Shown here one piece after another: positions 10,152 through 26,358 of a stretch of 36,011 nucleotides of DNA. The notes under the pieces were generated by a model. That model made no database searches. It was not told the DNA's origin and saw only the letters and a list, made by a program, of their open reading frames with translations. The DNA is from Hyphomonadaceae bacterium (lineage in GTDB: Bacteria > Pseudomonadota > Alphaproteobacteria > Caulobacterales > Hyphomonadaceae): NCBI GenBank assembly GCA_022760335.1, contig JALEGE010000002.1:1-36011 (forward strand). Reading direction: 5' to 3'. Every line of letters starts with the position of its first letter. Position 1 is the first letter of the stretch. Position numbers and translations under genes: made by a program.

Positions 10152-10213
10152 GTGCTGGCCTCCCGGGTGCGAACCTTTGGCAGGTTTCTTTCTCGATGCG
10201 AGAAGACCATAGA

Positions 10214-10230
10214 TGCGCAATTTATTGCAA
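10214..10230 (-). promoter_or_regulatory. Operator-like site 1 (GH97 side)
   Basis: Read on the minus strand the site is TTGCAATAAATTGCGCA, an inverted repeat GCAAT-AA-ATTGC. It lies 63 bp before the GH97 start in the divergent promoter region and matches three other sites in the locus. Probable binding site of the local LacI-family regulator. Confidence 0.65.
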
Positions 10231-10359
10231 GCCACTTTTTTTCGAAAATCACGGCTGTGAATATTATAATAAATCTTTGTTCTGCAATAAATAAAGGAGA
10301 TTGAGGGTTGATTGTATGTTTTTGCCTTGCCGCGGTGCAAAAACCATGATTTCCTTGTT

Positions 10360-10376
10360 TTGCAAAAACTTGCGAA
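10360..10376 (+). promoter_or_regulatory. Operator-like site 2 (GH13 side)
   Basis: TTGCAAAAACTTGCGAA, an imperfect inverted repeat GCAAA-AA-CTTGC, ends 27 bp before the start of the plus-strand GH13 operon that also contains the LacI gene. Its position suits repression and autoregulation. It shares TTGCA....TTGCGAA with the site before the TonB-dependent receptor at 15244. Confidence 0.65.
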
Positions 10377-10403
10377 GCCGTGTCGACTTACGCGAGGTGG
10401 AGG

Positions 10404-12290
10404 ATGAAAGTAATTCATGCATGTCTTGCGAGGCTGTGCGGGTTCGTTCTTGCTGGTGCCGTGAGTGTTGCGGGCTGTGCGGTCAGTACCGCTAATTCGC
10501 AAGGTATTTCCGATCTAGACCGTCCGCCTGAAGACGAGGTCATCTATTTCGTGATGCCCGACCGGTTCGAGAATGGCGATCCGTCCAATGATCGCGGCGG
10601 GCTTGAGGGCGGACCGCTGGAAACCGGCTTCGATCCCACTCACAAGGGCTTCTATCATGGCGGGGATCTCGCCGGCCTTACCGCTCGGCTCGGCTATATC
10701 CAGGGGCTTGGCGCGACGGCGATCTGGCTGACACCGATCTTCGAGAACAAGCCGGTGCAGGGCCCGCCAGGGCTCGAATCTTCCGGCTATCACGGTTACT
10801 GGATCACCGATTTTACCAATGTGGACCCGCATCTTGGCACGCGCGAGGAGTTCCGCGCTTTTGTCGAGGCCGCTCATGCGCGCGGCATGAAAGTCTATAT
10901 GGACATCATCACCAACCACACCGCCGATGTGATCAAGTATGCCGAGTGCCATGGCCCGGATGCGCTGGCGGACTACCGCGAGCAGGGCATTTGCCCTTAT
11001 CGCAGCCTTGGCGACTATCCCTTCACGACGGTGGGCGATGCGAACGGCACGCCGATCAATCATGGCTTTCTCGGCCTGGGGGCGGGCGACCTGACAGGCG
11101 AGAATTTCGCCCGGCTGACGCGTCCTGATTATGCCTACACGCCCTATGTGCCGCGCGAGGAGCGGGACGCGAAAACGCCGGCCTGGCTCAATGATCCGAT
11201 CCATTATCACAATCGCGGCGACACGCGCTTTGAGGGCGAGAATTCCCGGCTTGGCGACTTTGCGGGCCTGGATGACCTGATGACCGAAAGCCCGGTTGTG
11301 GTCGACGGCATGATCGAGATCTACAAGCAATGGATCACGGACTACCGCGTGGACGGCTTCCGCATTGATACCGCCCGGCATGTGAATCCGGAATTCTGGC
11401 AGCAATTCATCCCGGCGATCGAGACGCATGCGCGCGCTGAGGGCATCGACCATTTCCACATTTTCGGCGAGGTCTATGAATTCGATCCCGGCCAGCTTGC
11501 CGTGTTCACCACGCGCGACCAGCTGCCGACCGTGCTCGATTTCGCCTTCCAGGGCCGGGTGCGCGGCCTGCTGGTGGATGGTGCGCCGGCGCGCGAGCTG
11601 GAACGTCTGTTCGAGGTGGATGCGGTCTATGCGGGCGGCGAGGCCACCGCGCGCCGGCTGCCGACCTTTCTCGGCAATCACGATATGGGCCGGTTCGCCG
11701 GCATGCTGGCTGAGGCCCATCCGGAGATGGCGGCTGAAGAACAGCTTGCACGCGTGCGGCTGGCCCATGCCGTCATGATGTTCTCGCGCGGTGTGCCGAC
11801 CATCTATTATGGCGACGAGCAGGGCTTTGTGTCCGATGGCGGTGACCAGGCCGCGCGCGAGGACATGTTCGCGAGTGAAGTTGCCTCCTATAATGACAAT
11901 GCCCTGCTCGGCACGGATGCGACGACGGCTGAGCGCAATTTCGATAGCCAGCACCCGCTCTATCGCGCGATTGCCGAACTGGCCGCCATCCGCAGCGCCC
12001 ATACGGCCCTGCGTCAGGGGCCGCAGGCGGTGCGCCATTCCGACCTGGAGGGCGGTCTCATCGTGCTGTCGCGTTTCGCGCCGGACCGGAATTCCGAATA
12101 TGTGATCGCCTTCAATGCCGATCTCACCGAGCGCCAGGTCAATATCCCGGTCGATGGCCGCGCGCGCGACTGGGTGTCGGCACATGGTGTTTGCCAGCCG
12201 ACTTCGCCGACGCCGGGGGCCTATTCGCTCACCGTTCCGGCGCTTGATTTCCTTGTCTGCCATGCCGAGTTTGTGGAGCCGGTTGAATGA
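10404..12290 (+). CDS. GH13 alpha-amylase-family lipoprotein
   Basis: A 628-residue GH13 enzyme. The ATG at 10404 follows a GAGGTGGAGG ribosome site and gives a lipoprotein signal (VAGC, Cys25); an earlier in-frame start adds eight unlikely residues. Motifs: region I DIITNH (167-172), nucleophile Asp322 in GFRIDTA, acid/base Glu356 in FGEVYEF, and NHDMGRF with Asp427. The N-terminal 'VIYFVMPDRFENGDPSND' is typical of secreted alpha-amylases and cyclomaltodextrinase-like enzymes. Probable role: endo-cleavage of starch or dextrins in the periplasm or on a membrane. It overlaps the next gene by ATGA and is the first gene of the plus-strand operon. Subfamily not assigned. Confidence 0.92.
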   Translation: MKVIHACLARLCGFVLAGAVSVAGCAVSTANSQGISDLDRPPEDEVIYFVMPDRFENGDPSNDRGGLEGGPLETGFDPTHKGFYHGGDLAGLTARLGYIQGLGATAIWLTPIFENKPVQGPPGLESSGYHGYWITDFTNVDPHLGTREEFRAFVEAAHARGMKVYMDIITNHTADVIKYAECHGPDALADYREQGICPYRSLGDYPFTTVGDANGTPINHGFLGLGAGDLTGENFARLTRPDYAYTPYVPREERDAKTPAWLNDPIHYHNRGDTRFEGENSRLGDFAGLDDLMTESPVVVDGMIEIYKQWITDYRVDGFRIDTARHVNPEFWQQFIPAIETHARAEGIDHFHIFGEVYEFDPGQLAVFTTRDQLPTVLDFAFQGRVRGLLVDGAPARELERLFEVDAVYAGGEATARRLPTFLGNHDMGRFAGMLAEAHPEMAAEEQLARVRLAHAVMMFSRGVPTIYYGDEQGFVSDGGDQAAREDMFASEVASYNDNALLGTDATTAERNFDSQHPLYRAIAELAAIRSAHTALRQGPQAVRHSDLEGGLIVLSRFAPDRNSEYVIAFNADLTERQVNIPVDGRARDWVSAHGVCQPTSPTPGAYSLTVPALDFLVCHAEFVEPVE

Positions 12291-13981
12291 GTGACGTGAT
12301 TTCGACCGCATCTGATACGAGCCTTGCCGGCACTGCCGAGCCGTCCGGCGAGCCCTGGTGGAAGGGTGCGGTCATCTACCAGATCTATCCGCGCAGCTAT
12401 CGCGACACGACGGGCGATGGCATCGGGGATCTGAAAGGCATTTGCGAGAAGCTGGACCATGTCGCCTCCCTCGGCGTGGATGCCATCTGGCTCTCGCCTT
12501 TTTTTACTTCGCCCATGCATGATTATGGCTATGACGTTGCCGATTATTGCGATGTCGATCCGATCTTCGGCACGCTAGAGGATTTCGATGCGCTGGTCGA
12601 AAAGGCGCACAGGCTTGGCCTGAAAGTGATCATCGACCAGGTCTACAGCCACACCTCAGACGAGCATCCCTGGTTTGCCGAAAGCCGGGAAGACCGCACC
12701 AATCCCAAGGCCGACTGGTATGTCTGGGCCGATGCGAAGCCGGACGGCTCGCCGCCCTCGAACTGGCAGTCGGTCTTCGGTGGGCCAGCCTGGCAATGGG
12801 ATGCGCGCCGCAAGCAGTATTACATGCACAATTTCCTCACTTCCCAGCCGGACCTCAACCTGCACAATCGCGCGGTTCAGGATGTCTTGCTGGATGCCGC
12901 GCGCTTCTGGCTCGATCGCGGCGTGGATGGCTTCCGGCTGGATGCGATCAATTTCGCGATGCATGATCGGAAACTGACCGACAATCCGCCCTCGGGCTTG
13001 CCCATGGACCGCGTGACACGCCCGTTTGACATGCAGCGTCACGTCAACAGCATGTCCCAGCCGGAGGTGCCCGCCTTCCTGGAGCGGATCCGGGCACTGC
13101 TGGACCAGTATGGCGTGCGGTTCACCGTGGCCGAGGTTGGCGGGCCGCAGCCGCTCGGCGAAATGAAAGCCTTCACCGAGGGCGAAGCTCGGCTCAACTC
13201 GGCCTACAGTTTCGATTTTCTCTATGCCCAGGACCTCACCATCGGAACGGTGCAGGATTCCCTGTCGGCCTGGAGCGGAGCTGAGGGTGAGGGTTGGCCG
13301 TCCTGGGCCTTTTCCAATCACGACGCCCCGCGCGCGGTGTCGCGCTGGAGCGGCGCGCATGACCAGCGCCAGGTCTCGCGTCTCCTGATGCTTCTGCTGC
13401 TCAGCCTGCGCGGCAATGCCTTCATCTATCAGGGCGAGGAGCTTGGTCTGCCGCAGGCCGATGTTCCGTTTGAGGCGCTGAAGGACCCCGAGGCGATCGA
13501 AAACTGGCCGCACACGCTGGGCCGCGATGGCGCGCGCACGCCGATGCCCTGGACGGATGATGCGCCGTTCTTTGGTTTCTCGCGGGGTGATGCCTGGCTG
13601 CCTCCGGATCCTGCACATGGTCCGCTCTGTGTGACCAGTCAGGAGGCCTCGCCCGGCTCGTGTCTGAATGTAACGCGGCAGCTGCTACGTCTCCGCCAGG
13701 ATGCGCAGGCCTTGCGAATTGGGGCGCAATCATTCCTGCACGGATCGAATGCCATATTGGCATTTGAACGCTCAGTTGAGGATGACTTAATTGTGTGTGC
13801 CTTCAATTTGGGGGATGTCGAAGCTGTCTGGCGTCCTGAGGGCGGTGGTGAGAAGTGGCAAGTCCTGGCAACGCAGGATGGTGTTGTCGATTCTGCTGCC
13901 GCATTTCCGGGGCGGCTGGCACCGAAGACGGGATACTGGGCAAGGCGCAAACGCCTCAGTGCGGACAATGAGTTGGATTGA
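12287..13981 (+). CDS. Cytoplasmic GH13 alpha-glucosidase
   Basis: A 564-residue exo-alpha-glucosidase of the oligo-1,6-glucosidase/alpha-glucosidase branch of GH13 (probably subfamily 23). There is no signal peptide, so it is cytoplasmic. Motifs: QIYPRSY near 32-38, region I DQVYSH (117-122), QPDLN (187-191), nucleophile Asp219 (GFRLDAIN), acid/base Glu283 (VAEVGG), and NHD with Asp346. The residue after the nucleophile is Ala rather than Val, which in this group goes with alpha-1,4 rather than alpha-1,6 preference (family knowledge). It would convert imported maltose and maltodextrin to glucose for the glucokinase encoded at 25378. It overlaps the upstream GH13 gene by 4 bp, and the LacI gene follows 19 bp after its stop. 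Confidence 0.94.
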   Translation: MSDVISTASDTSLAGTAEPSGEPWWKGAVIYQIYPRSYRDTTGDGIGDLKGICEKLDHVASLGVDAIWLSPFFTSPMHDYGYDVADYCDVDPIFGTLEDFDALVEKAHRLGLKVIIDQVYSHTSDEHPWFAESREDRTNPKADWYVWADAKPDGSPPSNWQSVFGGPAWQWDARRKQYYMHNFLTSQPDLNLHNRAVQDVLLDAARFWLDRGVDGFRLDAINFAMHDRKLTDNPPSGLPMDRVTRPFDMQRHVNSMSQPEVPAFLERIRALLDQYGVRFTVAEVGGPQPLGEMKAFTEGEARLNSAYSFDFLYAQDLTIGTVQDSLSAWSGAEGEGWPSWAFSNHDAPRAVSRWSGAHDQRQVSRLLMLLLLSLRGNAFIYQGEELGLPQADVPFEALKDPEAIENWPHTLGRDGARTPMPWTDDAPFFGFSRGDAWLPPDPAHGPLCVTSQEASPGSCLNVTRQLLRLRQDAQALRIGAQSFLHGSNAILAFERSVEDDLIVCAFNLGDVEAVWRPEGGGEKWQVLATQDGVVDSAAAFPGRLAPKTGYWARRKRLSADNELD

Positions 13982-14000
13982 GGAAAGTCAGGGCGTGAGC

Positions 14001-15029
14001 ATGGCGGATGACAGTGATTCCAAGCGGCGCAATGTGCGTCTGGAAGACTTGGCCAAACAGGCTGGAGTCTCGATCTCGACTGTTTCGCGGGCGCTGAATG
14101 ATAGCCCGGCAGTGAATCGGCGCACCAAGCAGGCGATCTGGAAATTGGCGCGTGAACTGGATTATCCCTTTCGCCGCTATATGCCGACCGGACCGATCGG
14201 GGCGGATGCCACTATTGCGGTTGTTGTGCCTGTCCCGCAGGCGCGCGATGCGCACATCCACGACCCGTTTTTCTTCGAGTTGCTTTCCGGGATTGGTGAT
14301 GCGGCGCGCGAGCGAGGCTGTGATGTTCTGATCAGTCATACCACGCCGACAAGCTATGATGACCTTGCCTATGCAATGAGCACGAGCCGCGCAAATGGGG
14401 TGATCTTCATTGGTCAGTCCAGTCTGCACCGCGAGTTCAACCGCCTTGCCGAGGCGGAGGACCGGTTTGTTGTGTGGGGCGCAGAACTGCCCGAACAATC
14501 TTACTGTTCTGTCGGCAGTGACAATGTTCAGGGTGGGCGGCGCGCGACATCCCATCTTGCTCGGTTGGGGCGCAAGCAGATCGCCTTTTTGGGGGATACG
14601 ATTGCGCCTGAGGCTATGCAGCGCTTTCGCGGATACCAGGAGGCGTTGGAGCGCCATGGTCTGGAGCAGAATCCGCAATTGGCTGTTCCGGCACATTTTG
14701 AGGTCGAGTCTGCGGAGGCTTCGGTCCAGAGCATGATCGAGTCCGGTCTCGAATTTGATGGCATTGCGGCAGCGAGCGACCTGATTGCGCTGGGTGCTGT
14801 GCGCGCATTGCACAAGGCTGGGCGCAGTGTGCCGGGCGACGTTTCGGTTGTCGGCTATGACAATGTGCCTTTCAGCCGTTATTCCTCACCAGCCCTGACC
14901 ACGGTTTCGCAGGATGTCGGCACCGCGGGGCGGATCCTTGTTTCCAAGATCCTGGATTCCTCGGGCGCGATCAGTCGGTCTGAGCGAACCTCTACCGACC
15001 TCATTGTCCGCCAGTCTTGCGGAGCTTAG
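14001..15029 (+). CDS. LacI-family regulator of the maltodextrin locus
   Basis: About 342 residues. The N-terminal LacI HTH (about 12-60) contains 'VRLEDLAKQAGVSISTVSRALNDSPAVN' features and the hinge helix region. The rest is a periplasmic-binding-protein-like effector domain ending in 'DVSVVGYDNVPFSRYSSPALTTV'. I chose the ATG at 14001; a GTG at 13995, 7 bases after AGGAAAG (13981-13987), is equally plausible and adds two residues. It is the last gene of the GH13 operon, so it is probably autoregulated. The expected effector is maltose, a maltodextrin or glucose, by context. It is the natural candidate to bind the inverted GCAAN-NN-NTTGC sites at 10214, 10360, 15076 and 15244. Confidence 0.93.
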   Translation: MADDSDSKRRNVRLEDLAKQAGVSISTVSRALNDSPAVNRRTKQAIWKLARELDYPFRRYMPTGPIGADATIAVVVPVPQARDAHIHDPFFFELLSGIGDAARERGCDVLISHTTPTSYDDLAYAMSTSRANGVIFIGQSSLHREFNRLAEAEDRFVVWGAELPEQSYCSVGSDNVQGGRRATSHLARLGRKQIAFLGDTIAPEAMQRFRGYQEALERHGLEQNPQLAVPAHFEVESAEASVQSMIESGLEFDGIAAASDLIALGAVRALHKAGRSVPGDVSVVGYDNVPFSRYSSPALTTVSQDVGTAGRILVSKILDSSGAISRSERTSTDLIVRQSCGA

Positions 15030-15075: not shown

Positions 15076-15092
15076 TTGCAAAAATTTGCATT
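15076..15092 (+). promoter_or_regulatory. Operator-like site 3 (receptor promoter)
   Basis: TTGCAAAAATTTGCATT contains a perfect 14-bp inverted repeat TGCAAA-AA-TTTGCA. It lies in the AT-rich 279-bp gap between the LacI gene and the receptor gene. A further TTGC half-site lies 12 bp upstream. It matches sites 1, 2 and 4. Confidence 0.65.
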
Positions 15093-15308: not shown

Positions 15309-18107
15309 GTGAACACCAAGCATCTGAATCTGAGCCAGTATTTGCTGAACGGTGCCGCCACAGGCTTGGCGCTCGCGGTTATCTTCGGCAGTCCGGCCAT
15401 CGCCCAGGAAACCGACGCGCCCGAAGTTACACAGGCTGCGGATGAGGATGAAGCCATTCTGCGGACCGTGACGGTCACCGGTATCCGTAGTTCGATTCAG
15501 AACTCGCTGGCGACCAAGCGGAACGCAACGTCGATCGTCGAGGCGATTTCCGCAGAAGACATCGGCAAACTGCCCGATCTTTCCATCGCCGACTCCCTGG
15601 CGCGCCTGCCCGGCGTGACGGCCCAGCGTGTGCGCGGCCGCTCCCAGCAGATCTCGATCCGCGGCCTGGGTCCGGATTTTTCTCTCGCACTTCTGAATGG
15701 GCGTGAAGTGGTTTCTTCGGGCAATAATCGCGGTGTAGAGTTTGACCAGTTCCCGTCCGAACTCATCGCGCAAGGCGTGGTCTACAAGACGCCGGACGCA
15801 ACGCTCGCGGCAACAGGCATTGCCGGATCGGTGGATCTGCGCACCGTGCGTCCGCTGGACTATACTGATCGTCGCATCAATCTGTCGGGCAAATATGTGC
15901 TCAACGACAATGGCGCGCTGAACCCCGATTTCGACGAAGACGGCTATCGCCTCTTCGGCTCCTATATCGACCAGAATGCCGAAGGCACGATTGGCTGGTC
16001 GCTGGGCGTGACGGTGCAGTCCAACCCGACCCATTTCTTCTCGCGCGAGCTGAAGACGAATTCCGGGCAGGTTTCCATCGACCCGGCGACGGGCCTCGTT
16101 TACCCCGCTGACAATCCGCGTACCGGTGTCGTCTCGCGTGAGTTTAAACGCACTTCGGTTGCCGGCTCGCTGCAGTTTGAGCCGACGGATCGCTGGCAGA
16201 CCAGCATTGATGGCTTTTACACAGATACCGAAGACGCTGGCATTTTCCGCGGCGTGGAAACGCCGCTTGCCTCCTGGTCGAATTCCGATCCGCAATTGAC
16301 CGGGATCACCGGCGACACGGGCTTTGCAGACAGCGCCACGTTCAGCAATGTAAACCCGATCCTGCGCACCGATACCGAGGGCAATACGGCGGAAATCTGG
16401 GCTTTGGGCATCAACACATCCTACGAGGTGTCCGACCGTCTCACGATCATGGGAGATCTCAGCCGGTCTGAACTTGATCGCTCGGATGTGGATTACGAGT
16501 CCTATGCTGGCACCGGATTTTCCGGCATGGGGCCCTATGACACCATGACCTTCACTCTGCCGGGCAGCGGCGAGTACTCCATCGACCATGATCTGGATTA
16601 TACTGATCCCTCGGTCATGCTGCTCACTGATCCGGGCGGCTGGGGCCAGGTCGGCTTTGTGCGCGAGCCGGATATTGAAGACGAGCTGACCCAGCTGCGC
16701 CTGCAGGCCGAGTATGATCTCGATGTGCCCTTCATCTCCGGCCTGACGGGTGGTGTGTTGATCACCGATCGCGAGAAATCCTTCACCGACAATGCCTATT
16801 TCGTGCGCGCTGGGGCTGGTTTTGTCGACGGCTCGCTGATGATCCCGGCGGACTCGATTATCGGTGTGACCGATAGTGGGTCCATCGGCTTTGATATCAT
16901 TGCCTATGACCCTTCCGGCCTGCGCAATGATGGCACCTATGTGCTGGAAGAGACCTCGGCCACGGCCTGGGTTGTCGATGAGGATATCAACACCTGGTAT
17001 GCCATGGCGGGTATCGATTACAGTTTGGGCCAGGTGCCGGTGACCGGCAATGTCGGCTTCCAGTATGTCGATGTCACCCAGGCCTCCACCGGCACGCTGG
17101 CTGGCTCGGGCGAGCAGACGGTTGAGTACAGCTATGAGGATGTTCTGCCGAGCCTGAACCTCAGCTTCGAGGTTGCCGACAGCACCTTCCTGCGCTTTGC
17201 CGCCGCGAAGACCGTGACCCGGCCGCGCCTGGATCAACTTGCTGCGAACCAGAGCTTTGAGCGCAATCCGGTGGTGTGTGGCGATAGCAATGCTGACGGC
17301 GTTCCAGATGGTGTGGCCGGCCAAAATCCGCCAGCCCAAACGTGCTATACCTTGAAAGGCGGTAACCCTTTCCTGGAGCCGTATCGCTCGACTTCATTCG
17401 ATGCCGCTGTCGAGAAATATTTCGGCGATGCCAGTGCGGTCTCCTTCGCGGTGTTCCACAAGGATCTGGAAGACTGGGTGATCGACCGTGTCGTCGTCGT
17501 GGATGCCACTCAGCAATATGGTGCTATCGGGCTCAGCGATTTCCTTGCGGCGAATCCGGAGATCGCGGCCACCCGTCTGGAAGGGCCGGTGAATTTCGCC
17601 GATGGGTCCATTTCCGGCTATGAGGCGACGTTGCGTCTGAGCCTGGACGATGTCCTGCCGGGCACGCTGGAGGGCCTGGGCTTCGGTGCCAGCTACACCT
17701 ATGCCGACAATGGCCTGGAAGACGAAAATGGAAATGAAATCAGTATTCCAGGCTATTCCGACACAGTCTGGTCAGGCGATGTCTATTATGAAAACTTCGG
17801 TTTCCGCGGGAAACTGAGTGCGCGCTATCGCTCCGGCTTCCTTTCGGAAGTCCAGCAATTCAATGGCATGCTTGATAATGCCCAGGCCGTTGAGGAGACC
17901 ATCATCGATGCCCAGATCGGGTATGAATGGGAGAGCGGCCCGCTGGAAGGCTTCTCGGTGAACCTGGAAATCTTCAACCTGACCGATGAGCCCTTTGCCA
18001 CTGAGAACGACATCTTCAACGCAAATGGAGATGGTGTGGGCACCTTTGTCAGCCGCCATGAGCTGTATGGCACGACCTACAACTTCACGGTCGCCAAGCG
18101 GTTCTGA
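15309..18107 (+). CDS. TonB-dependent receptor (MalA-like)
   Basis: A 932-residue outer-membrane receptor. The GTG at 15309 is chosen because GGGAGGA lies 5 bases upstream and the product opens with a signal peptide ending near 'AIAQE'. A TonB-box-like 'TVTVTGIRSS' is followed by the plug domain (about 65-190; 'ISIRGLGPDFSLALLNGREV') and a long beta barrel ending in the terminal Phe of 'VAKRF'. The architecture fits the large Xanthomonas/Caulobacter receptor family, whose member MalA transports maltodextrins in C. crescentus. Here it should bring alpha-glucan oligosaccharides into the periplasm for the GH97 and GH13 enzymes. Two operator-like sites precede it, and an intrinsic terminator follows it. 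Confidence 0.94.
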   Translation: MNTKHLNLSQYLLNGAATGLALAVIFGSPAIAQETDAPEVTQAADEDEAILRTVTVTGIRSSIQNSLATKRNATSIVEAISAEDIGKLPDLSIADSLARLPGVTAQRVRGRSQQISIRGLGPDFSLALLNGREVVSSGNNRGVEFDQFPSELIAQGVVYKTPDATLAATGIAGSVDLRTVRPLDYTDRRINLSGKYVLNDNGALNPDFDEDGYRLFGSYIDQNAEGTIGWSLGVTVQSNPTHFFSRELKTNSGQVSIDPATGLVYPADNPRTGVVSREFKRTSVAGSLQFEPTDRWQTSIDGFYTDTEDAGIFRGVETPLASWSNSDPQLTGITGDTGFADSATFSNVNPILRTDTEGNTAEIWALGINTSYEVSDRLTIMGDLSRSELDRSDVDYESYAGTGFSGMGPYDTMTFTLPGSGEYSIDHDLDYTDPSVMLLTDPGGWGQVGFVREPDIEDELTQLRLQAEYDLDVPFISGLTGGVLITDREKSFTDNAYFVRAGAGFVDGSLMIPADSIIGVTDSGSIGFDIIAYDPSGLRNDGTYVLEETSATAWVVDEDINTWYAMAGIDYSLGQVPVTGNVGFQYVDVTQASTGTLAGSGEQTVEYSYEDVLPSLNLSFEVADSTFLRFAAAKTVTRPRLDQLAANQSFERNPVVCGDSNADGVPDGVAGQNPPAQTCYTLKGGNPFLEPYRSTSFDAAVEKYFGDASAVSFAVFHKDLEDWVIDRVVVVDATQQYGAIGLSDFLAANPEIAATRLEGPVNFADGSISGYEATLRLSLDDVLPGTLEGLGFGASYTYADNGLEDENGNEISIPGYSDTVWSGDVYYENFGFRGKLSARYRSGFLSEVQQFNGMLDNAQAVEETIIDAQIGYEWESGPLEGFSVNLEIFNLTDEPFATENDIFNANGDGVGTFVSRHELYGTTYNFTVAKRF

Positions 18108-18132
18108 TCGTGCCGGCCTGGATTGAAACGGG

Positions 18133-18160
18133 AAGGCTCGCCCAGGTGGCGGGCCTTTTC
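18133..18160 (+). terminator. Intrinsic terminator after the receptor gene
   Basis: A 10-bp stem AAGGCTCGCC/GGCGGGCCTT (one G-U pair) with a 5-base loop is followed by a short T tract. It sits 25 bp past the receptor stop and 21 bp before the first halogenase-like gene. It probably reduces, rather than abolishes, transcription into that gene, as no separate promoter is obvious in the remaining gap. Confidence 0.7.
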
Positions 18161-18181
18161 CATTTCCGGTAGGAATAACCC

Positions 18182-19693
18182 ATGCAAACCCAGCATATTC
18201 AGCGTGTGGTGATTGTCGGCGGCGGTACGGCTGGCTGGATTGCTGCAGCCGCCATGTCGAAACTGCTCTCGTCGAATGTCTCGATCACGTTGGTGGAATC
18301 CGAGGTCATCGGCACAGTCGGGGTGGGTGAGGCGACGATCCCGCAGATCCGTCGGTTGAACGGCATTCTGGGTCTGAGCGAGGATGAGGTGCTGGCCGCC
18401 ACTCAGGGTACGTTCAAGCTGGGCATCGAATTCAACAATTGGGGCCGGATTGGCGATCGTTATCTGCACACATTCGGCGATGCGGGCATCAACCTCGCCG
18501 GCTTGCACTTTCACCAATACTGGCTGCGCGCGCGGGCGGAAGGCGGCACGGCGAGCCTGTGGGACTATTCGTTTCATCACAGGGCCGCCTATGCCCATAA
18601 ATTCGGCCGGTTGGAGCGGGTTGGCAACACACCGATGACGGGCCTTGCCTATGCCTTCCATTTCGATGCCGGGCTCTATGCGCGCTATCTGCGCTCCTAT
18701 GCCGAAGCCAGGGGCGTTACGCGCATTGAAGGCAAGGTGGTGGATGTCGCGCTGGAGCCTGAGCGCGGACATATCGCCTCTGTCACGCTGGAAAGCGGCG
18801 CGCAGGTGGAGGGGGAGCTGTTCGTCGATTGCTCCGGCTTTCGCGGCCTGTTGATCGGCGACGCACTTGGTGTGGAGTATCAGGACTGGAGCCACTGGCT
18901 ACCGTGCAATCGTGCATTGGCCGTGGCGAGTGCGCGGACGGAACCGCTGCTCCCTTACACCAGATCCACCGCCCATGAGGCCGGATGGCAATGGCGCATC
19001 CCCCTGCAACACCGCACGGGCAATGGCCATGTGTTCTGCGACAGCTTTACCAGCGAGGATGCCGCCGCCAGCACGCTACTCGCCAATCTCGATGGCACGC
19101 CACTTTCAGACCCGCGGCCGTTGCGCTTCACCACGGGGCGGCGCGCGGTTTTCTGGGAAAAGAACTGTGTCGCGATCGGGCTTTCGAGCGGCTTTCTGGA
19201 ACCTCTGGAATCCACCAGCATTCATCTCATCCAGTCGAATGTCTCGCGCCTGATCGAGCTCTTTCCCACGCGCGCATTTCATCCGGCCCATGCGGCGCTG
19301 TACAATGAGCAGACCGCCCATGAGATCGAGCTGGTGCGCGATTTTCTGATCCTGCACTATCATCTCAACCAGCGAGACGATTCCGAGTTCTGGCGCTATT
19401 GCGCCAATATGGACATTCCGGATTCCCTGCAGGCCAAGATGGACCTGTTTGCGGCCACGGGCCTTCTCCACAAAGAGCCGGAAGATCTGTTCCGCGAATC
19501 AAGCTGGGTGCAGGTGATGCTGGGGCAGAATCTGATGCCGGCGGGCTATCACGAAATGGCAAACCGGCTGCGTCCGGACCAGCTTCGCGACTTCCTTGCG
19601 CAGGTGCAGACCATCATCGCCAAGGCCACAAGCGGCCTGCCGGCCCATGGCGACTTCATTGCGGCTCACTGCAGGACGCCGGCCGCGCAATAG
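18182..19693 (+). CDS. Tryptophan-halogenase-family flavoprotein 1
   Basis: A 503-residue FAD-dependent halogenase-family protein. It has the FAD motif GGGTAG (13-18), GEATIP (49-54), the catalytic Lys79 (TFKLGI), the WQWRIP box (269-274) and the Glu of PLEST (Glu343). The Lys and Glu match the two catalytic residues of the tryptophan 7-halogenase PrnA almost by number. Members next to TonB receptors and glycosidases are common in Caulobacter, Brevundimonas and Xanthomonas; some purified relatives halogenate (mostly brominate) free indoles, but the native role is unknown. An AGGA ribosome site precedes the ATG. It follows the receptor gene after a terminator and overlaps the convergent paralogue by 28 bp. 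No flavin reductase gene is nearby. Confidence 0.92.
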   Translation: MQTQHIQRVVIVGGGTAGWIAAAAMSKLLSSNVSITLVESEVIGTVGVGEATIPQIRRLNGILGLSEDEVLAATQGTFKLGIEFNNWGRIGDRYLHTFGDAGINLAGLHFHQYWLRARAEGGTASLWDYSFHHRAAYAHKFGRLERVGNTPMTGLAYAFHFDAGLYARYLRSYAEARGVTRIEGKVVDVALEPERGHIASVTLESGAQVEGELFVDCSGFRGLLIGDALGVEYQDWSHWLPCNRALAVASARTEPLLPYTRSTAHEAGWQWRIPLQHRTGNGHVFCDSFTSEDAAASTLLANLDGTPLSDPRPLRFTTGRRAVFWEKNCVAIGLSSGFLEPLESTSIHLIQSNVSRLIELFPTRAFHPAHAALYNEQTAHEIELVRDFLILHYHLNQRDDSEFWRYCANMDIPDSLQAKMDLFAATGLLHKEPEDLFRESSWVQVMLGQNLMPAGYHEMANRLRPDQLRDFLAQVQTIIAKATSGLPAHGDFIAAHCRTPAAQ

Positions 19694-19720
19694 CGCGCGA
19701 TGAAATCCTCATGGGCCGGC
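19639..19720. repeat. Inverted repeat at the halogenase gene junction
   Basis: Perfect 11-bp arms GCCGGCCCATG (19639-19649) and CATGGGCCGGC (19710-19720) flank the overlapping gene ends. They arise because both convergent paralogues encode the same C-terminal motif (PAH.DFIA..C). The structure could form a stem in both transcripts and help end transcription, but lacks a T tract. Confidence 0.6.
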
Positions 19721-21183
19721 ATGGCGGCGACGGCCTCGGCCATGGCCCGGCGAATATCGGCCAGGCGCTCAGCTGCGGGAACCAGTGTGCGCATTGAGGC
19801 GAGCGCAGGCGCGCGCGCGGGCACAATGCCCTGGCCGAGATAAACAGCGATCCAGCTGGGATTGTGGAACAGCTCCCGCTCATCAGACACCAGACGGCCC
19901 TCACGCCGGAAATGGTCGATCTTGTAGGCCAGGCGCTCCGGGATCTCCATCTCGGCGCAATAGCGCCAAAGCGCGCTGTCGCGACGTTCGGTGGCCTTGT
20001 AGTGCAGGATCAGAAAGTCGCGGATGCGCTCATACTCGGCGATGGTGAGCGCGTTGTATTCCTCCGCCAGCAGGGGCGACATGTCCTTGCCGGGGAAGAG
20101 CGCGAGGAGGCGCATGATGCCATACTGGATCAGGTGCAGGCTGGTGGATTCCAGCGGCTCCATGAAGCCGGCGGAAAGCCCGATGGCGACGCAGTTCCCG
20201 TTCCAGAATTTCTTCCGCCGCCCTGTGGTGAAGCGCAGCTGGCGCGGCTCACCCAGCGGGGCGCCGTCGAGATTATCCAGCAGGGTGGCTGTCGCCTCAT
20301 CCTCGCTGATAAACCGGCTGCAATAGACATAGCCGTTTCCGGTTCTGTGCTGCAGGGGGATGCGCCATTGCCAGCCGGCCTCGCGCGCAGTGGATCGGGT
20401 ATAGGGCAGGGCATGACTGGTCTTCTCGCATCCTACCGCGACAGCCCGGTTGCAGGGCAGCCAGTGGCTCCAATCCTCATATCCGGTTTCCAGAGTCTGC
20501 TCGATGAGACGGCCGAAAAATCCCGTGCAGTCCACGAACAACTCGCCGGGATAAGATTGGCCGCTCTCAACCCGTACCGCTGAGATATGCCCTGTCTCGC
20601 CATCGCGGAGCACCTCCACAACCCGCCCTTCAACGCGCGTCACCCCGCGCGCTTCGGCATAACCGCGCAGATACTGCGTATAGAGCGTGGCGTCGAAATG
20701 ATAGGCATAATCGAAGCTGGACTGGATCATCCGTTTGTCGCGCGCGGGATGGTCAAACTTGCCGGCTGTCGCGGCCGCCCAAGCCATGGAATAGGCATCG
20801 ATCGGTGTCGGATCGCCCGCCAGATGTTCGCGCATCCAGTAATGATAGAAGGGCACCTGGTCGAACTCGGCGCCATATTGGCCAAAGGGGTGGAAATAGC
20901 TGTCTCCGAGCTGTGCCCAGTCGGCAAACTGGATGCCCAGTTTGAATGTGCCCTGGGTTTCGCGCACGAAGGTGGCCTCATCAATGCCCAGGCGTTGGTT
21001 GAAATACTTGATCGGCGGGATCGTGGCCTCGCCTACACCCACTGTGCCGATGGCCTCTGATTCGATCAGCGTGATCTTGCAGGCCGGGCCAACCGCATGT
21101 GCGAGCGCTGCGGCGGTCATCCAGCCGGCAGAACCGCCTCCAACGATGACAATTGAGCCGATATTGCGCGATGAGGCCTGCAT
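19666..21183 (-). CDS. Tryptophan-halogenase-family flavoprotein 2
   Basis: A 505-residue paralogue of the gene at 18182. It has the FAD motif GGGSAG (15-20), GEATIP, catalytic Lys81 in TFKLGI, a WQWRIP box and PLESTS with the catalytic Glu. An insertion near residues 115-150 (around 'HLAGDPTPIDAYSMAW') is longer than in its partner and lies where substrate-binding differences would be expected. The ATG at 21183 has an AGGAG ribosome site. It reads toward its paralogue and shares 28 bp with it at the 3' ends. Its promoter lies in the 21184-21342 gap shared with zwf. The biological substrate is unknown; association with alpha-glucan uptake is by location only. Confidence 0.92.
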   Translation of the reverse strand: MQASSRNIGSIVIVGGGSAGWMTAAALAHAVGPACKITLIESEAIGTVGVGEATIPPIKYFNQRLGIDEATFVRETQGTFKLGIQFADWAQLGDSYFHPFGQYGAEFDQVPFYHYWMREHLAGDPTPIDAYSMAWAAATAGKFDHPARDKRMIQSSFDYAYHFDATLYTQYLRGYAEARGVTRVEGRVVEVLRDGETGHISAVRVESGQSYPGELFVDCTGFFGRLIEQTLETGYEDWSHWLPCNRAVAVGCEKTSHALPYTRSTAREAGWQWRIPLQHRTGNGYVYCSRFISEDEATATLLDNLDGAPLGEPRQLRFTTGRRKKFWNGNCVAIGLSAGFMEPLESTSLHLIQYGIMRLLALFPGKDMSPLLAEEYNALTIAEYERIRDFLILHYKATERRDSALWRYCAEMEIPERLAYKIDHFRREGRLVSDERELFHNPSWIAVYLGQGIVPARAPALASMRTLVPAAERLADIRRAMAEAVAAMPAHEDFIARYCAAGVLQ

Positions 21184-21268
21184 CGCTTCTCCTCTCCCGT
21201 GTTTTTCTTTAGTTTAAAGCAGAACTCAACTGTGTGGCGAGAGCTGTGCTGGTCTACCAGCTATGACC

Positions 21269-21284
21269 TCGCAACCAGTTGCAA
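21269..21284 (-). promoter_or_regulatory. Operator-like site 5 (zwf/halogenase gap)
   Basis: A perfect 12-bp inverted repeat GCAAC-CA-GTTGC (21271-21282). Read on the minus strand it is TTGCAACTGGTTGCGA, keeping TTGCA.....TTGCGA of the four sugar-gene sites, with a different centre. It lies between the divergent halogenase 2 and zwf genes and could bring the Entner-Doudoroff operon under the same or a related LacI regulator. Confidence 0.5.
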
Positions 21285-21319
21285 ATCCGGTGTAGTTTCC
21301 GCATAGGAATGCGAGATAA

Positions 21320-21336
21320 ATGTTGTGCGCTAACAT
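21320..21336. promoter_or_regulatory. Second inverted site before zwf
   Basis: ATGTTGTGCGCTAACAT has 5-bp inverted arms ATGTT/AACAT around GTGCGCT. This resembles the ATGTTA..TAACAT operators of several sugar-acid LacI/GntR-type repressors. It lies just before the possible zwf starts. Weak on its own. Confidence 0.35.
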
Positions 21337-21342
21337 CCAGCT

Positions 21343-22839
21343 TTGAAGCGGTGCGCCCAACCAGAGGAGGACATCCCCATCGCCGAGTTCATACCTGTAG
21401 ATCTGTTCGAGATCGTCATCTTCGGAGGAACCGGTGATCTGTCCCAGAGAAAGCTTCTGCCCGCGCTCTTCCACCGCTGGAAGGACGGGCAGGTGCCGGA
21501 GGGAAGCCGGATCATCGGATCGGCCCGTACCGACATGGATACAGACGGCTATGTCGCCTTTGCCAAGGAGGCTTGCCAGCGTGCCCAGGGCGAGGATTGG
21601 AAAGAGAGTGAGTGGACCGAATTCGCCAAACTGCTCGACTATCAGGCCCTTGATGCCACCGACCCCAAGGCAGATTGGAAGGAGCTGAAAGGCAAGCTTT
21701 CAAAGAATGTCCCGGTGCGTGTGTTCTATCTGGCCACATCGCCGCGGCTATATGTCGAGATCTGCGGGGCTGTGTCACGCGCCGGGCTGATTACGCCCGA
21801 TACACGTGTTGTGCTGGAAAAACCGATTGGCACCAATCTCGCCTCGGCTCAGGAAATCAATGAAGGCGTCTGCGCTTATTTCGACGAACATCAAATCTAT
21901 CGGATCGATCATTATCTCGGCAAGGAAACGGTACAAAACCTGATGGTGCTGCGTTTTGCCAATCTCCTTATGGAGCCGGTCTGGAACCGCGCAGCGGTGG
22001 ATCATGTGCAGATCACCGTGGCCGAGGATCTCGGGCTGGAAGGCCGGGCAGGGTATTATGACCGCTCCGGTGCCCTGCGCGACATGGTGCAAAACCACCT
22101 CCTGCAATTGCTCTGTTTGACGGCCATGGAGCCGCCGGCCACGCTGGAAGGCGATGATGTCCGCACCGAGAAGATCAAGGTGCTGCAGGCCCTGCGCCGG
22201 TTCACGCCCGCCATGGCGGAGAAGAACTCGGTGCGCGGGCAGTACACGGCCGGTATGGTGAAGGGTAAACCTGTGAAAGGTTACCTGGAAGAACTGGAAG
22301 ATGGGCAGAGCGATACGGAGACCTTCGTAGCCATCAAGACCGAGATCGAGAACTGGCGCTGGGCCGGCGTGCCCTTTTATTTGCGTACGGGCAAGCGCAT
22401 GGCCTCGCGCCGGTCTGACATTGTCATCCAGTTCAAGCCCGTGCCACACTCGATCTTCGGCGACAGCGAGACCCAGGCCAACCGGCTGGTGATCCGCCTG
22501 CAGCCCGATGAAGGCGTGCGCCTGTTCGTGCAGATCAAGGAGCCGGGCCCTGGCGGGCTGCGCATCAAGTCCCTGCCGCTGAATCTCTCCTATGCGGAGA
22601 ATTTCACGGTGCGGTACCCAGATGCCTATGAGCGGCTTTTGATGGATGTCGTGCGTGGCAATCTCGCCCTGTTCATGCGCCGCGATGAGGTGGAGGCGGC
22701 CTGGGCCTGGATCGACGAGCTGATCGAAGCCTGGGAAGAGAAGGAGTTGCAGGTGGAGTCTTACGCCGCCGGTAGCGACGGGCCGGTGTCTTCGGCTGTC
22801 ATGATGGAACGCGACAGCCGCAAATGGTGGGGCCAATGA
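21343..22839 (+). CDS. zwf: Glucose-6-phosphate dehydrogenase
   Basis: A glucose-6-phosphate 1-dehydrogenase that oxidises G6P to 6-phosphogluconolactone with NAD(P)+. From the first conventional start it is 498 residues. The Rossmann motif GGTGDLS is at 28-34, and the active-site signature RIDHYLGK at 187-194. The frame has no ATG or GTG near the family's normal N-terminus. The only standard start is a TTG at 21343 without a ribosome site. A perfect AGAGGAGG (21363-21370) points instead to an ATC at 21379, which would give the expected N-terminus (AEFIPVDLFEIVIFGGTGDL). I list the TTG as the outer limit and consider 21379 more likely. First gene of zwf-pgl-edd-glk; overlaps pgl by ATGA. Confidence 0.96.
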   Translation: MKRCAQPEEDIPIAEFIPVDLFEIVIFGGTGDLSQRKLLPALFHRWKDGQVPEGSRIIGSARTDMDTDGYVAFAKEACQRAQGEDWKESEWTEFAKLLDYQALDATDPKADWKELKGKLSKNVPVRVFYLATSPRLYVEICGAVSRAGLITPDTRVVLEKPIGTNLASAQEINEGVCAYFDEHQIYRIDHYLGKETVQNLMVLRFANLLMEPVWNRAAVDHVQITVAEDLGLEGRAGYYDRSGALRDMVQNHLLQLLCLTAMEPPATLEGDDVRTEKIKVLQALRRFTPAMAEKNSVRGQYTAGMVKGKPVKGYLEELEDGQSDTETFVAIKTEIENWRWAGVPFYLRTGKRMASRRSDIVIQFKPVPHSIFGDSETQANRLVIRLQPDEGVRLFVQIKEPGPGGLRIKSLPLNLSYAENFTVRYPDAYERLLMDVVRGNLALFMRRDEVEAAWAWIDELIEAWEEKELQVESYAAGSDGPVSSAVMMERDSRKWWGQ

Positions 22840-23540
22840 CCGGCACGCCAGCATTTGCGGTCTGCGACAGTCGTGAAGCAGCAGCCGATCATATCGCCTA
22901 TCTGCTTGAAGGCGCACTGCGGGCGCAACTCACTCTGCAAGGTCGGGCGAGCCTGCTTTTATCCGGGGGCTCCACGCCCGGGCCAGTGTTCGACCGGCTC
23001 GCAACCGTCGAGCTCAACTGGAGCGCTGTAACGGTCGGCCTGGTGGATGAACGCTGGGTGCCTGATGAGCTTGGTGGCTCAAATGCAGCCCTGTTGCGTC
23101 AAACCTTGCTGACCGGGCGGGCCGAAGCGGCCCGTTTTGTGCCCATGTACAATGGAGCGGCGAGCCCTGCTGAGGGGCTCGTGGAGGCGGAGGCGGCCTA
23201 TGCGCCCTTGTTTGAGGTGCCGCCGCTGGTCTTGTTGGGCATGGGGCCGGATGGCCATACCGCATCCTGGTTTCCTGGCGCCAAGGGTCTGGTTGAAGCC
23301 TTGGACACAGGCCACTCTCATATGCTGGCTGCCATTGATGCCACGGGTGCGCCCGTCGCGGGTGACATGCCTCATCGCATGACGGTAACAGCTGCTGCGA
23401 TTGCGCGCGCCTGTTTCGCTGTGTTGTACATTACCGGAGAGGAAAAGCGTGCCGTCCTTGAAAACACGGGCGCGAACCTGCCGATCCATCATGCCGAGCG
23501 TGTGCTCGGCGACAAGCTGAAGGAGGTCTGGGCGCCATGA
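22836..23540 (+). CDS. pgl: 6-phosphogluconolactonase
   Basis: A 234-residue DevB/SOL-type 6-phosphogluconolactonase that hydrolyses the Zwf product to 6-phosphogluconate in the cytoplasm. Signature elements are '[13 protein letters not shown]', '[10 protein letters not shown]' and '[16 protein letters not shown]'. The start at 22836 forms an ATGA overlap with the zwf stop; an upstream in-frame start would overlap zwf further and adds four residues without support. Coupled both upstream (zwf) and downstream (edd), so expression should be stoichiometric with them. Confidence 0.96.
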
Positions 23541-25381
23541 GCGAACCGCAAAAACTCCACCCCACCGTCGAAGAGGTGCTTGCCCGCATCGAGGCGCGCT
23601 CTGCCGATAGTCGCGCGGCTTATCTGGAGATGATCCGCGCGCACAAGCCGGAAAAGTTCGCACGCAAGCAGCTGACAGAGGGTAACCAGGCCCATGCCAG
23701 CGCTGGCTGCGCGGTCATCGACAAGATGCAGCTGCTTGGCGACGCCTGGCCGAATATCGGCATCGTCACAGCCTATAATGACATGCTCTCGGCGCATGCG
23801 CCGTTTGAACATTATCCGGAGATCATCCGCGCCGCCGCGCGCGAGGTTGGCGCCACGGCGCAGGTCGCCGGCGGTGTGCCGGCCATGTGCGATGGCGTCA
23901 CCCAGGGCCAGGCGGGCATGGAGCTGTCGCTCTTCTCGCGCGATGTCATCGCGCTCGCCTCGGCGGTGTCTCTCAGCCATGACACGTTCGATGCCGGCCT
24001 GCATCTTGGCGTGTGCGACAAGATCATTCCCGGCCTCGTGATTGCTGCCCTGCGCTTTGGCTGGCTGCCGCATGTCTTCGTGCCCGCCGGGCCGATGCCG
24101 TCCGGCCTGCCCAACCCTGAAAAGGCGCGCGTGCGTCAGCTCTTCGCAGAAGGCAAGGTCGGGCGCGAGGAACTGCTCAAGGCGGAGTCCGAGAGCTATC
24201 ACAGCCCCGGCACCTGCACTTTCTATGGCACAGCCAACTCCAACCAGATGATGATGGAAGTGATGGGCCTTCACGTCCCCGGCGCGGCCTTCGTCAATCC
24301 CGGCACACCATTGCGCGATGCCCTGACAAAAGCCGCCACCCAGCGCGCTGCCGAGCTGACCATCAAGGGCGAGTATACGCCCGCTGGCGAGATGATCGAT
24401 GCGCGCAGCTTCGTGAACGCGATTGTCGGCCTTATGGCGACTGGCGGATCGACCAATCATGCCCTGCACATCCCGGCCATGGCGGCGGCGGCGGGTGTGC
24501 AGATCACGCTCGATGATTTCAACGACCTGTCCGCCGTTACCCCGCTACTCTGCCGGATTTATCCCAATGGCGTGGCCGATGTGAACCATTTCCACGCCGC
24601 TGGCGGCATGGGCTTTGTAGTGCGCGAACTGGTGGATGCCGGTCTCATGATCGGCGAAGCGCGCGGCGTGGTCGGCTGCATCGCCGGCTATTCCGACGAG
24701 CCCTATCTGGAAGATGGCAAGGTGGCTTGGCGTCCGGCGCCGAGCGAGAGCGGCGATCTCGATATCCTGCGTCCGGCCAGCGATCCCTTCTCAAAGGATG
24801 GCGGCCTGCGCCTGATGGAGGGCCCGCTCGGGCGCGGCGTGACCAAGGTCTCTGCCGTGAAGCCGGAAAACCGCATCGTCGAGGCGCCGGCGCGTGTCTT
24901 CGATAGTCAGGAAGCCCTGAAAGAAGCCTACAAGGCCGGCGAGTTGACCCGCGATGTTGTGGCCGTTGTGCGCTTTCAGGGGCCTGGCGCCAATGGCATG
25001 CCAGAGTTGCATTCCCTCTCGCCTGTGCTGGGTGCGCTACAGGACGGAGGACACAAGGTGGCACTTGTCACCGATGGGCGCATGTCTGGCGCTTCCGGCA
25101 AGGTGCCCTCGGCAATACATATTGGTCCGGAGGCGGCCAATGGTGGCCCGCTCGCGCGTGTGCGCGATGGCGATATCATCCGCGTCGATTGCGAGCATGG
25201 GCAGCTGGAATTGAAAGTCGATCCGGACGAGTTTGCGGCGCGCGAACCTGTGCCCTTCCGCCCGAATCAGAGCCATATCGGGCTCGGGCGAGAGATGTTC
25301 GGTGCATTCCGGGCCGGTTCTTGCAATACCGAGGCGGGGGCGTCCCTGTTTGACTTTCTGATGCCTGGCGCTGGAGTATGA
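23537..25381 (+). CDS. edd: 6-phosphogluconate dehydratase
   Basis: A 614-residue IlvD/Edd-family dehydratase, normal length for Edd. It converts 6-phosphogluconate to KDPG and needs an iron-sulfur cluster; the cluster cysteines are in '[10 protein letters not shown]', 'GVCDKIIPG' and the '[15 protein letters not shown]' segment. The last motif and the position between pgl and glk make Edd far more likely than the dihydroxy-acid dehydratase IlvD. ATGA overlaps tie it to both neighbours. Its product is the substrate of the aldolase encoded at 4381-5025. Confidence 0.97.
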
Positions 25382-26358
25382 ACCAAACAGTTCTGATTGG
25401 AGATGTCGGCGGAACCAGTATCCGCTTCGCGCTCGGCCGCCGTGGCCCGGGCGGGGTCGAGATATCCGAGTTCGAAAAGATCTCTGATCCGTTCGACCGG
25501 TTTTCAGATGCGCTCGCGCAGTATCTCGAAAGGCACGATATCAGGGTTGAGCGTGCGCTATTTGCGATTGCCGGCCCGGTGGCTGAGGACGGCACAGTCA
25601 CCATGACCAATCGGCCAGACTGGCCAACGATTTCGCCAAGAGATCTCCAGTCCAGAGTTGGCCTGACAGAGGTCACCCTCGTCAATGATTTCGCCGCGAT
25701 GGCGCGCGCCATACCGGAGATGAAGCCGGAAGATTTTGTCGAAGTCCTTCCTGGTAAGCCGGCTGTAGGGGCGCCGATCATTGTCACTGGCCCGGGCACG
25801 GGCTTTGGCGTCTCAACTTTGCTGCCCGAGCATGACGGATGCTGGCGGCCTGTCACTGGGCAGGGCGGGCACACCGCCTACGCCCCGCGCAGTGTCCGCG
25901 AGGCTGAAATGGCAGAGCGTATAGCGGCTGAGCACGGTTATATTTCTACAGAGATGGTGGTTTCTGGCATCTGGCTACAGTCGGTTTTCGATGTGATCAG
26001 CGATATGCATGGGCAATCTCGTGAGAAGGTTTCGGCTGGTGAGATTTTGCGCCGCGCCGAAGCAGATGATCCGGTTGCGCGTGAGGTGTGCCTGGTGCGC
26101 GCGTGCGGGATCATGGGGGCCGCCGGCGATTTGGTCTTCATCAATGGCGGGCATGGCGGAGTTGTGCTTACCGGCGGTGTTGCCGAGCGCATGGTTTCTT
26201 GGTTGAAAAGCCCCGAAGCGGTGCGCCGTTTCCGCGAGCGTGGCACGGAATCCTACTATGTCGCCGATGTGCCGGTGCGTGTGCTCATGAACCATGAGGC
26301 CCCGCTGGTCGGCGCGGCCGCGCTGCTTTTTGATCGTATCCAACGCATCTGCGCGTGA
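25378..26358 (+). CDS. glk: Glucokinase
   Basis: A 326-residue Glk-type glucokinase of the ASKHA fold. It phosphorylates glucose with ATP, feeding Zwf. Phosphate-binding motif [12 protein letters not shown] at 8-19, catalytic-base region 'LVNDFAAMA', adenosine-side '[11 protein letters not shown]' and '[11 protein letters not shown]'. The ATG overlaps the edd stop. As the last gene of the operon it takes the glucose released by the cytoplasmic alpha-glucosidase (12287) and by GH97 in the periplasm. No obvious terminator follows in the 120-bp gap before adhC. Confidence 0.96.

Follow-up and report, generated by a model that had tools for sequence, protein, structure and literature searches.

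Why should a locus devoted to starch uptake carry two halogenases? The question arises from a 36,011-nucleotide stretch of a Hyphomonadaceae genome (contig JALEGE010000002.1, positions 1 to 36,011; hereafter the window), in which two genes, encoding proteins that we call HalA and HalB, lie between a TonB-dependent receptor gene and zwf. The following features make up the locus.

5044-6489, minus strand: GH13 alpha-amylase-like enzyme (PF00128, E 8.5e-33; start uncertain)
6405-7985, minus strand: MFS sugar transporter (PF07690 and a GPH/sucrose-type match)
8043-10502, minus strand: GH97 glycosidase (PF10566, PF14508 and PF14509; the real start is probably nearer 10.1 kb)
10380-12290, plus strand: GH13 alpha-amylase-like enzyme (PF00128, E 3.7e-62; start uncertain)
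12287-13981, plus strand: GH13 alpha-glucosidase-like enzyme (PF00128, E 2.5e-117)
14001-15029, plus strand: LacI-family regulator (PF00356 and PF13377; start placed by inference inside ORF 13791-15029)
15309-18107, plus strand: TonB-dependent receptor of the TIGR01782 type, with a signal sequence (TIGR01782, 525 bits for a cut-off of 310; start at 15309 inferred from GGAGG and GTG)
18182-19693, plus strand: HalA, flavin-dependent halogenase of 503 aa (PF04820 over the whole domain, E 3.3e-190)
19666-21183, minus strand: HalB, flavin-dependent halogenase of 505 aa (PF04820 over the whole domain, E 3.3e-192)
21343-26358, plus strand: zwf-pgl-edd-glk, for Entner-Doudoroff glucose catabolism, divergent from HalB (edd, PF00920; glk, PF02685; zwf and pgl assigned by their sequences and not by profile match)

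This is a TonB-receptor carbohydrate utilisation cluster for starch, as the original prediction had proposed: the receptor is accompanied by three GH13 enzymes, a GH97 glycosidase, an MFS carrier and a LacI regulator, so that the receptor, glycosidases, inner-membrane carrier and LacI regulator expected of a starch locus are all present, with synteny in relatives. HalA starts 74 bp 3' of the receptor gene on the same strand, HalA and HalB are convergent with 3' ends overlapping by 28 bp, and 159 bp separate HalB from zwf. A gene for a ribosomal peptide precursor was considered and ruled out between the receptor, HalA, HalB and zwf, where these gaps and the overlap leave no space for one. The window genes scanned include no PKS, NRPS, prenyltransferase or other natural-product gene, in agreement with the predicted absence of a biosynthetic cluster. 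A search for defence systems with PADLOC returned no match, and sigma-70 promoter and terminator scans of positions 18000-21400 gave matches not above chance. Elsewhere in the window, a phage-type integrase is encoded at the left end (587-1744) and a fusion of a GNAT acetyltransferase with a carbon-nitrogen hydrolase at 2797-4344; the window contains no tRNA genes.

Both halogenases were predicted to be catalytically intact, and their sequences bear this out. The GGGxxG dinucleotide-binding motif, the WQWRIP box and the Glu of PLEST (E343 in HalA) are intact in each, and the catalytic lysine is found at Lys79 in HalA and Lys81 in HalB. By sequence, HalA and HalB are thus complete, non-degenerate flavin-dependent halogenases. 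The Lys, the Glu and the WxWxIP motif are all retained in 151 of 161 homologues from related loci, across three classes. The two paralogues are 52% identical overall and only 29% identical over HalA residues 113-153, which confirms the divergence noticed around residues 115-150 and supports the suggestion that they differ in target; they probably act on different substrates or different sites.

Structure prediction, one of the checks originally recommended, gave an AF2 model of HalA with a pLDDT of 93. The nearest structures to this model are those of Xcc4156, BrvH and a Pseudoalteromonas halogenase (9luq), at 46-48% identity and TM scores of 0.94-0.95, followed by PyrH, PrnA and RebH at 30-36% identity. 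Xcc4156 and BrvH are also the top matches to HalA by sequence. The substrate lid in the model is a short inter-helix loop (residues 427-438) with no insertion relative to BrvH, and the long Trp-binding lid of the PrnA/RebH type is absent from it.

The neighbourhood of these enzymes was then compared across relatives, using one genome per species and assigning the neighbours of the best 80 HalA relatives (from alpha-, beta- and gammaproteobacteria) by profile search. A TIGR01782-like receptor accompanies 74 of these 80, mostly immediately 5' and on the same strand, and an Oar-type TonB receptor occupies the same place in two more, which brings TonB-type receptors to 76 of the 80. Missing co-occurrence in relatives had been named in advance as evidence against the original prediction; the comparison clearly contradicts that outcome, and the observed recurrence is broader than the Caulobacter- and Xanthomonas-type bacteria it mentioned. 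Two of the four remaining relatives adjoin a pullulanase, and GH13 genes lie near 48 of the 80. The two Oar-type outer-membrane proteins (L123:6819-9905 and L125:6852-9881) combine CarboxypepD_reg and OMP_b-brl_4 domains and sit directly 5' of the halogenase.

To avoid the bias of starting from halogenases, we also ran a reverse search from the receptor. Among its 32 loci, the window included, a halogenase lies within 1.5 kb in 23 and about 2 kb away in two more. In 61 genomes of order-level relatives, 127 halogenase genes form 79 clusters, at least 55 of which have a listed TIGR01782 receptor no more than 8 kb away, where random placement would give 2.2. The starch genes, the receptor-HalA pair and the convergent HalB recur, rearranged, in about ten genomes. 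The receptor-halogenase module is therefore conserved across three proteobacterial classes. Since the same module occurs in starch, GH43/GH5 and GH43/GH3 loci, it is the glycan that varies and the receptor that stays constant.

Halogenase distances follow receptor distances (r 0.75-0.90) more tightly than those of any other locus gene. The partial correlation of halogenase with receptor, controlling for LacI, GH13, MFS or GH97, remains at 0.71-0.86, whereas those with LacI, GH13, MFS or GH97, given the receptor, range from -0.20 to 0.20; these values come from a sample whose positives were picked for having a halogenase and in which related rows cluster. On the receptor tree, the label "has halogenase" requires 4 changes against 27.9 after shuffling, again with positives picked for the halogenase. 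Such co-divergence of neighbours could stem partly or wholly from adjacency or joint transfer.

LacI-type palindromes lie at the following places in the locus.

15076-15091: LacI-type palindrome TTGCAAAAATTTGCAT, 5' of the receptor-HalA pair
10360-10375 and 10215-10230: copies of the palindrome GCAANNNNTTGC, at the divergent GH97/GH13 promoters
21269-21284: copy of GCAANNNNTTGC in the divergent HalB-zwf intergenic region, where it could serve either gene

A CG-centred LacI operator was sought and is absent from the intergenic regions; GCAANNNNTTGC was adopted in its place. The window contains five copies of it where 1.03 would be expected, a number that none of 100 shuffles attains, and four of the five fall at GH97/GH13 (two), before receptor-HalA and in the HalB-zwf gap. 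Similar palindromes are found 5' of the receptor in several relatives. This distribution fits control by the LacI regulator, short of proof.

The genome itself holds further examples of the pairing. Only five of its receptors pass the TIGR01782 cut-off, and three of these adjoin halogenases: the one in the window and those on contigs C63 and C88. The C63 locus (L010) has four halogenase-family genes together with Cupin_8, GH5, GH43 and LacI genes, and the C88 locus (L011) has SapC, Cupin_8 and one halogenase. The latter forms a receptor-SapC-Cupin_8-halogenase cassette (L011:1800-8340) with no adjoining glycosidases; SapC and Cupin_8 recur in the sister loci L061, L063 and L074. Between the intact halogenases of C63 lies a shorter Trp_halogenase-like protein devoid of the catalytic Lys and Glu (L010:8589-10022). 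Similar proteins recur elsewhere (L058:11054-12487 and L060:10393-11694), and a role as non-catalytic partner is possible. Weak partial Trp_halogenase matches in the same genome (C156:193-429 and C203:221-652, loci L008 and L009) are probably fragments or other flavoproteins. In the halogenase tree, HalA and HalB fall in separate clades, each of which covers several families. Xcc4156 is placed beside the SapC/Cupin_8-linked paralogue in L011 and not with HalA or HalB, and BrvH sits on a long branch of its own close to L010:7021-8583, a C63 paralogue, in a grouping that may be a false long-branch join.

What, then, could the two enzymes be doing beside a receptor? We tentatively propose, with a probability of about 0.35, that HalA and HalB halogenate a Trp or Tyr side chain of a polypeptide of the locus, foremost the receptor precursor before its export. 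They would be cytoplasmic, FADH2-dependent halogenases of the BrvH/Xcc4156 type serving the TonB receptor and not a natural-product pathway. In the presence of maltodextrin, the LacI regulator would release the receptor-HalA pair. A housekeeping flavin reductase would supply FADH2; flavin reductase genes are present elsewhere in the genome. The flavin hydroperoxide would react with halide to give HOBr (or HOCl), which would pass through the tunnel to Lys79, and Glu343 would steer electrophilic halogenation of the indole or phenol ring. Such chemistry, with FADH2, O2, halide, Lys and Glu, is what membership of the family and the retained residues imply. The modification might tune the sugar-binding surface of the receptor or its recognition by phages or toxins, and HalB might serve a second site or a second partner. 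A side chain of the receptor precursor is favoured because the receptor is constant and the glycan variable, because the locus has no scaffold or peptide precursor gene and because the lid is short. The open site of the model and the linkage to the receptor likewise suggest that these could be peptide or protein halogenases. Little time would be available for the reaction, since the receptor is Sec-exported and the enzyme cytoplasmic.

Receptor sequences, compared for a common target residue, do not lend support to this proposal. Trp445 lies in the LTDPxGWG loop of the receptor model; all 63 halogenase-linked receptors of the starch clade carry it, and it is a candidate sugar-contact residue. 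Four of the seven receptors that have no halogenase next to them also retain this Trp, one of the four (G057) coming from a genome in which Trp_halogenase gives no match at E 1e-40, and the remaining linked receptor clades lack it. A local-pair alignment of linked and unlinked receptors revealed many clade-specific residues and no aromatic residue common to all linked receptors and lost where the enzyme is missing. A fold search with the receptor returned general TonB receptor similarity only (11-15% identity), and the literature searched contains no report of a halogenated TonB receptor.

Other targets have to be weighed against the receptor. One target suggested in the original prediction was a glycan-bound plant or algal aromatic. 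This idea finds no support, since the clade is tied to starch loci and starch is free of aromatic decoration; the steadiest neighbour is the receptor, not any glycan or esterase. A related view, which we consider rather unlikely, is that the target is an aromatic small molecule (a plant or algal phenol or indole) that enters with the glycan or signals it, and that is detoxified, marked or prepared. Cytoplasmic halogenases would encounter imported compounds, the divergence of HalA and HalB around 113-153 can be read in this way, and free indole or indole derivatives are substrates of BrvH and of the Xanthomonas enzymes (PMC5945002, PMC7336383). Against it, the receptor stays while the glycan changes between starch, GH43/GH5 and GH43/GH3 loci, starch offers no aromatic groups, and no recurring aromatic-degradation, export or esterase partner was found among the neighbours examined. 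Hypohalous acid is a general intermediate of the halogenase family, and its release, or that of a diffusible halogenated product, could serve competition or signalling during feeding on the glycan. A competition role has been proposed for Colwellia halogenases in a metatranscriptome study (PMC11337851). We regard this as unlikely here: the neighbours examined show no recurring scaffold, exporter or resistance gene, up to four halogenase copies behind one receptor would be left unexplained, and it is with the receptor that the halogenases co-diverge.

It is improbable that HalA and HalB have given up halogenation to hydroxylate or oxidise their target, as QhpG does on a protein tryptophan. There is a weak similarity to QhpG, and Cupin_8 oxygenase-like genes are present in sister loci, which would suit such chemistry; every halogenase-specific residue is nevertheless retained, and bromination by the related BrvH is proven and depends on the same catalytic lysine (PMC5945002). 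Least probable, in our estimate, is that the halogenases have no role in uptake and merely travel with starch loci that move as blocks. It is true that the genes of the locus move together and that not every starch receptor has a halogenase, yet receptors of several TIGR01782 clades and of the Oar type show the pairing, alongside differing glycosidases, and the catalytic residues are retained over three classes.

A receptor substrate would mean a new type of protein modification in bacteria. A more general form of the receptor-substrate proposal, which we hold to be doubtful, is that of a widespread system in which halogenases, together with the Cupin_8 oxygenase-like and SapC proteins of the sister loci, act on aromatic residues of their cognate TonB receptors by halogenation or oxidation ahead of export, altering how the receptor binds sugar or concealing it from phages or toxins. 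BrvH and Xcc4156, and perhaps the halogenases carried by phages, would on this view modify proteins. The recurrent place directly behind the receptor ties a group of characterised, substrate-orphan halogenases to nutrient uptake rather than to antibiotic making. The bromide-preferring BrvH and Xcc4156 are known as pure, crystallised proteins with no native substrate assigned, and the module narrows the search from aromatic chemistry at large to the receptor, its ligand and the proteins of the locus. To our knowledge, the only measured activities of the BrvH/Xcc4156 group are the bromination, slow for BrvH, of free indole and of indole derivatives.

Among known systems, BrvH from Brevundimonas BAL3 (PDB 6FRL) has the fold, catalytic residues and short open lid of HalA, at 46% identity. 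It brominates indole weakly, has a halogenase neighbour and is a substrate orphan; its lid spans residues 432-444, against 440-467 in RebH, and its authors liken the open active site to that of MibH, which chlorinates a Trp within a peptide (PMC5945002). TonB goes unmentioned in that paper (PMC5945002). The predicted kinship with BrvH nevertheless extends to its genomic setting: a genome from the same order encodes a 97% identical copy immediately 3' of a TIGR01782 receptor gene, together with another halogenase and a LacI gene and near GH3 and GH43 genes. As opposed to HalA, BrvH thus belongs to a GH43/GH3 locus and not to a starch locus, and occupies its separate long branch. Xcc4156 of Xanthomonas campestris (PDB 6Y1W) is 47% identical to HalA and differs from both HalA and HalB in its place in the tree, with the L011 paralogue; it too is a substrate orphan, and the Xanthomonas enzymes are reported to brominate exclusively (PMC7336383).

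PrnA, RebH, PyrH and Thal share with HalA the fold and the catalytic Lys and Glu, at 30-36% identity. They act on free Trp, grip its amino and carboxyl groups with a long lid and are encoded in biosynthetic clusters, whereas HalA has a short lid and a receptor for neighbour. MibH and the peptide brominases SrpI and MppI (PMC12615548) target a Trp in a ribosomal peptide, for which the HalA/HalB locus has no precursor gene, and MibH is distant from HalA and HalB (about 190 bits or less). The locus itself resembles the CUT loci described with TonB receptors in Xanthomonas and Caulobacter, which combine receptor, glycosidases, inner-membrane carrier and LacI-type regulator for maltodextrin, and in whose description halogenases are unmentioned (PMC1790865). 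In the mainly open literature searched, we found no description of halogenases in connection with TonB carbohydrate loci; an earlier mention is possible, and annotators may well have seen this genomic neighbourhood already. HalA and HalB belong to a known kind of enzyme, and the new element would be the receptor-halogenase module that they form in glycan loci.
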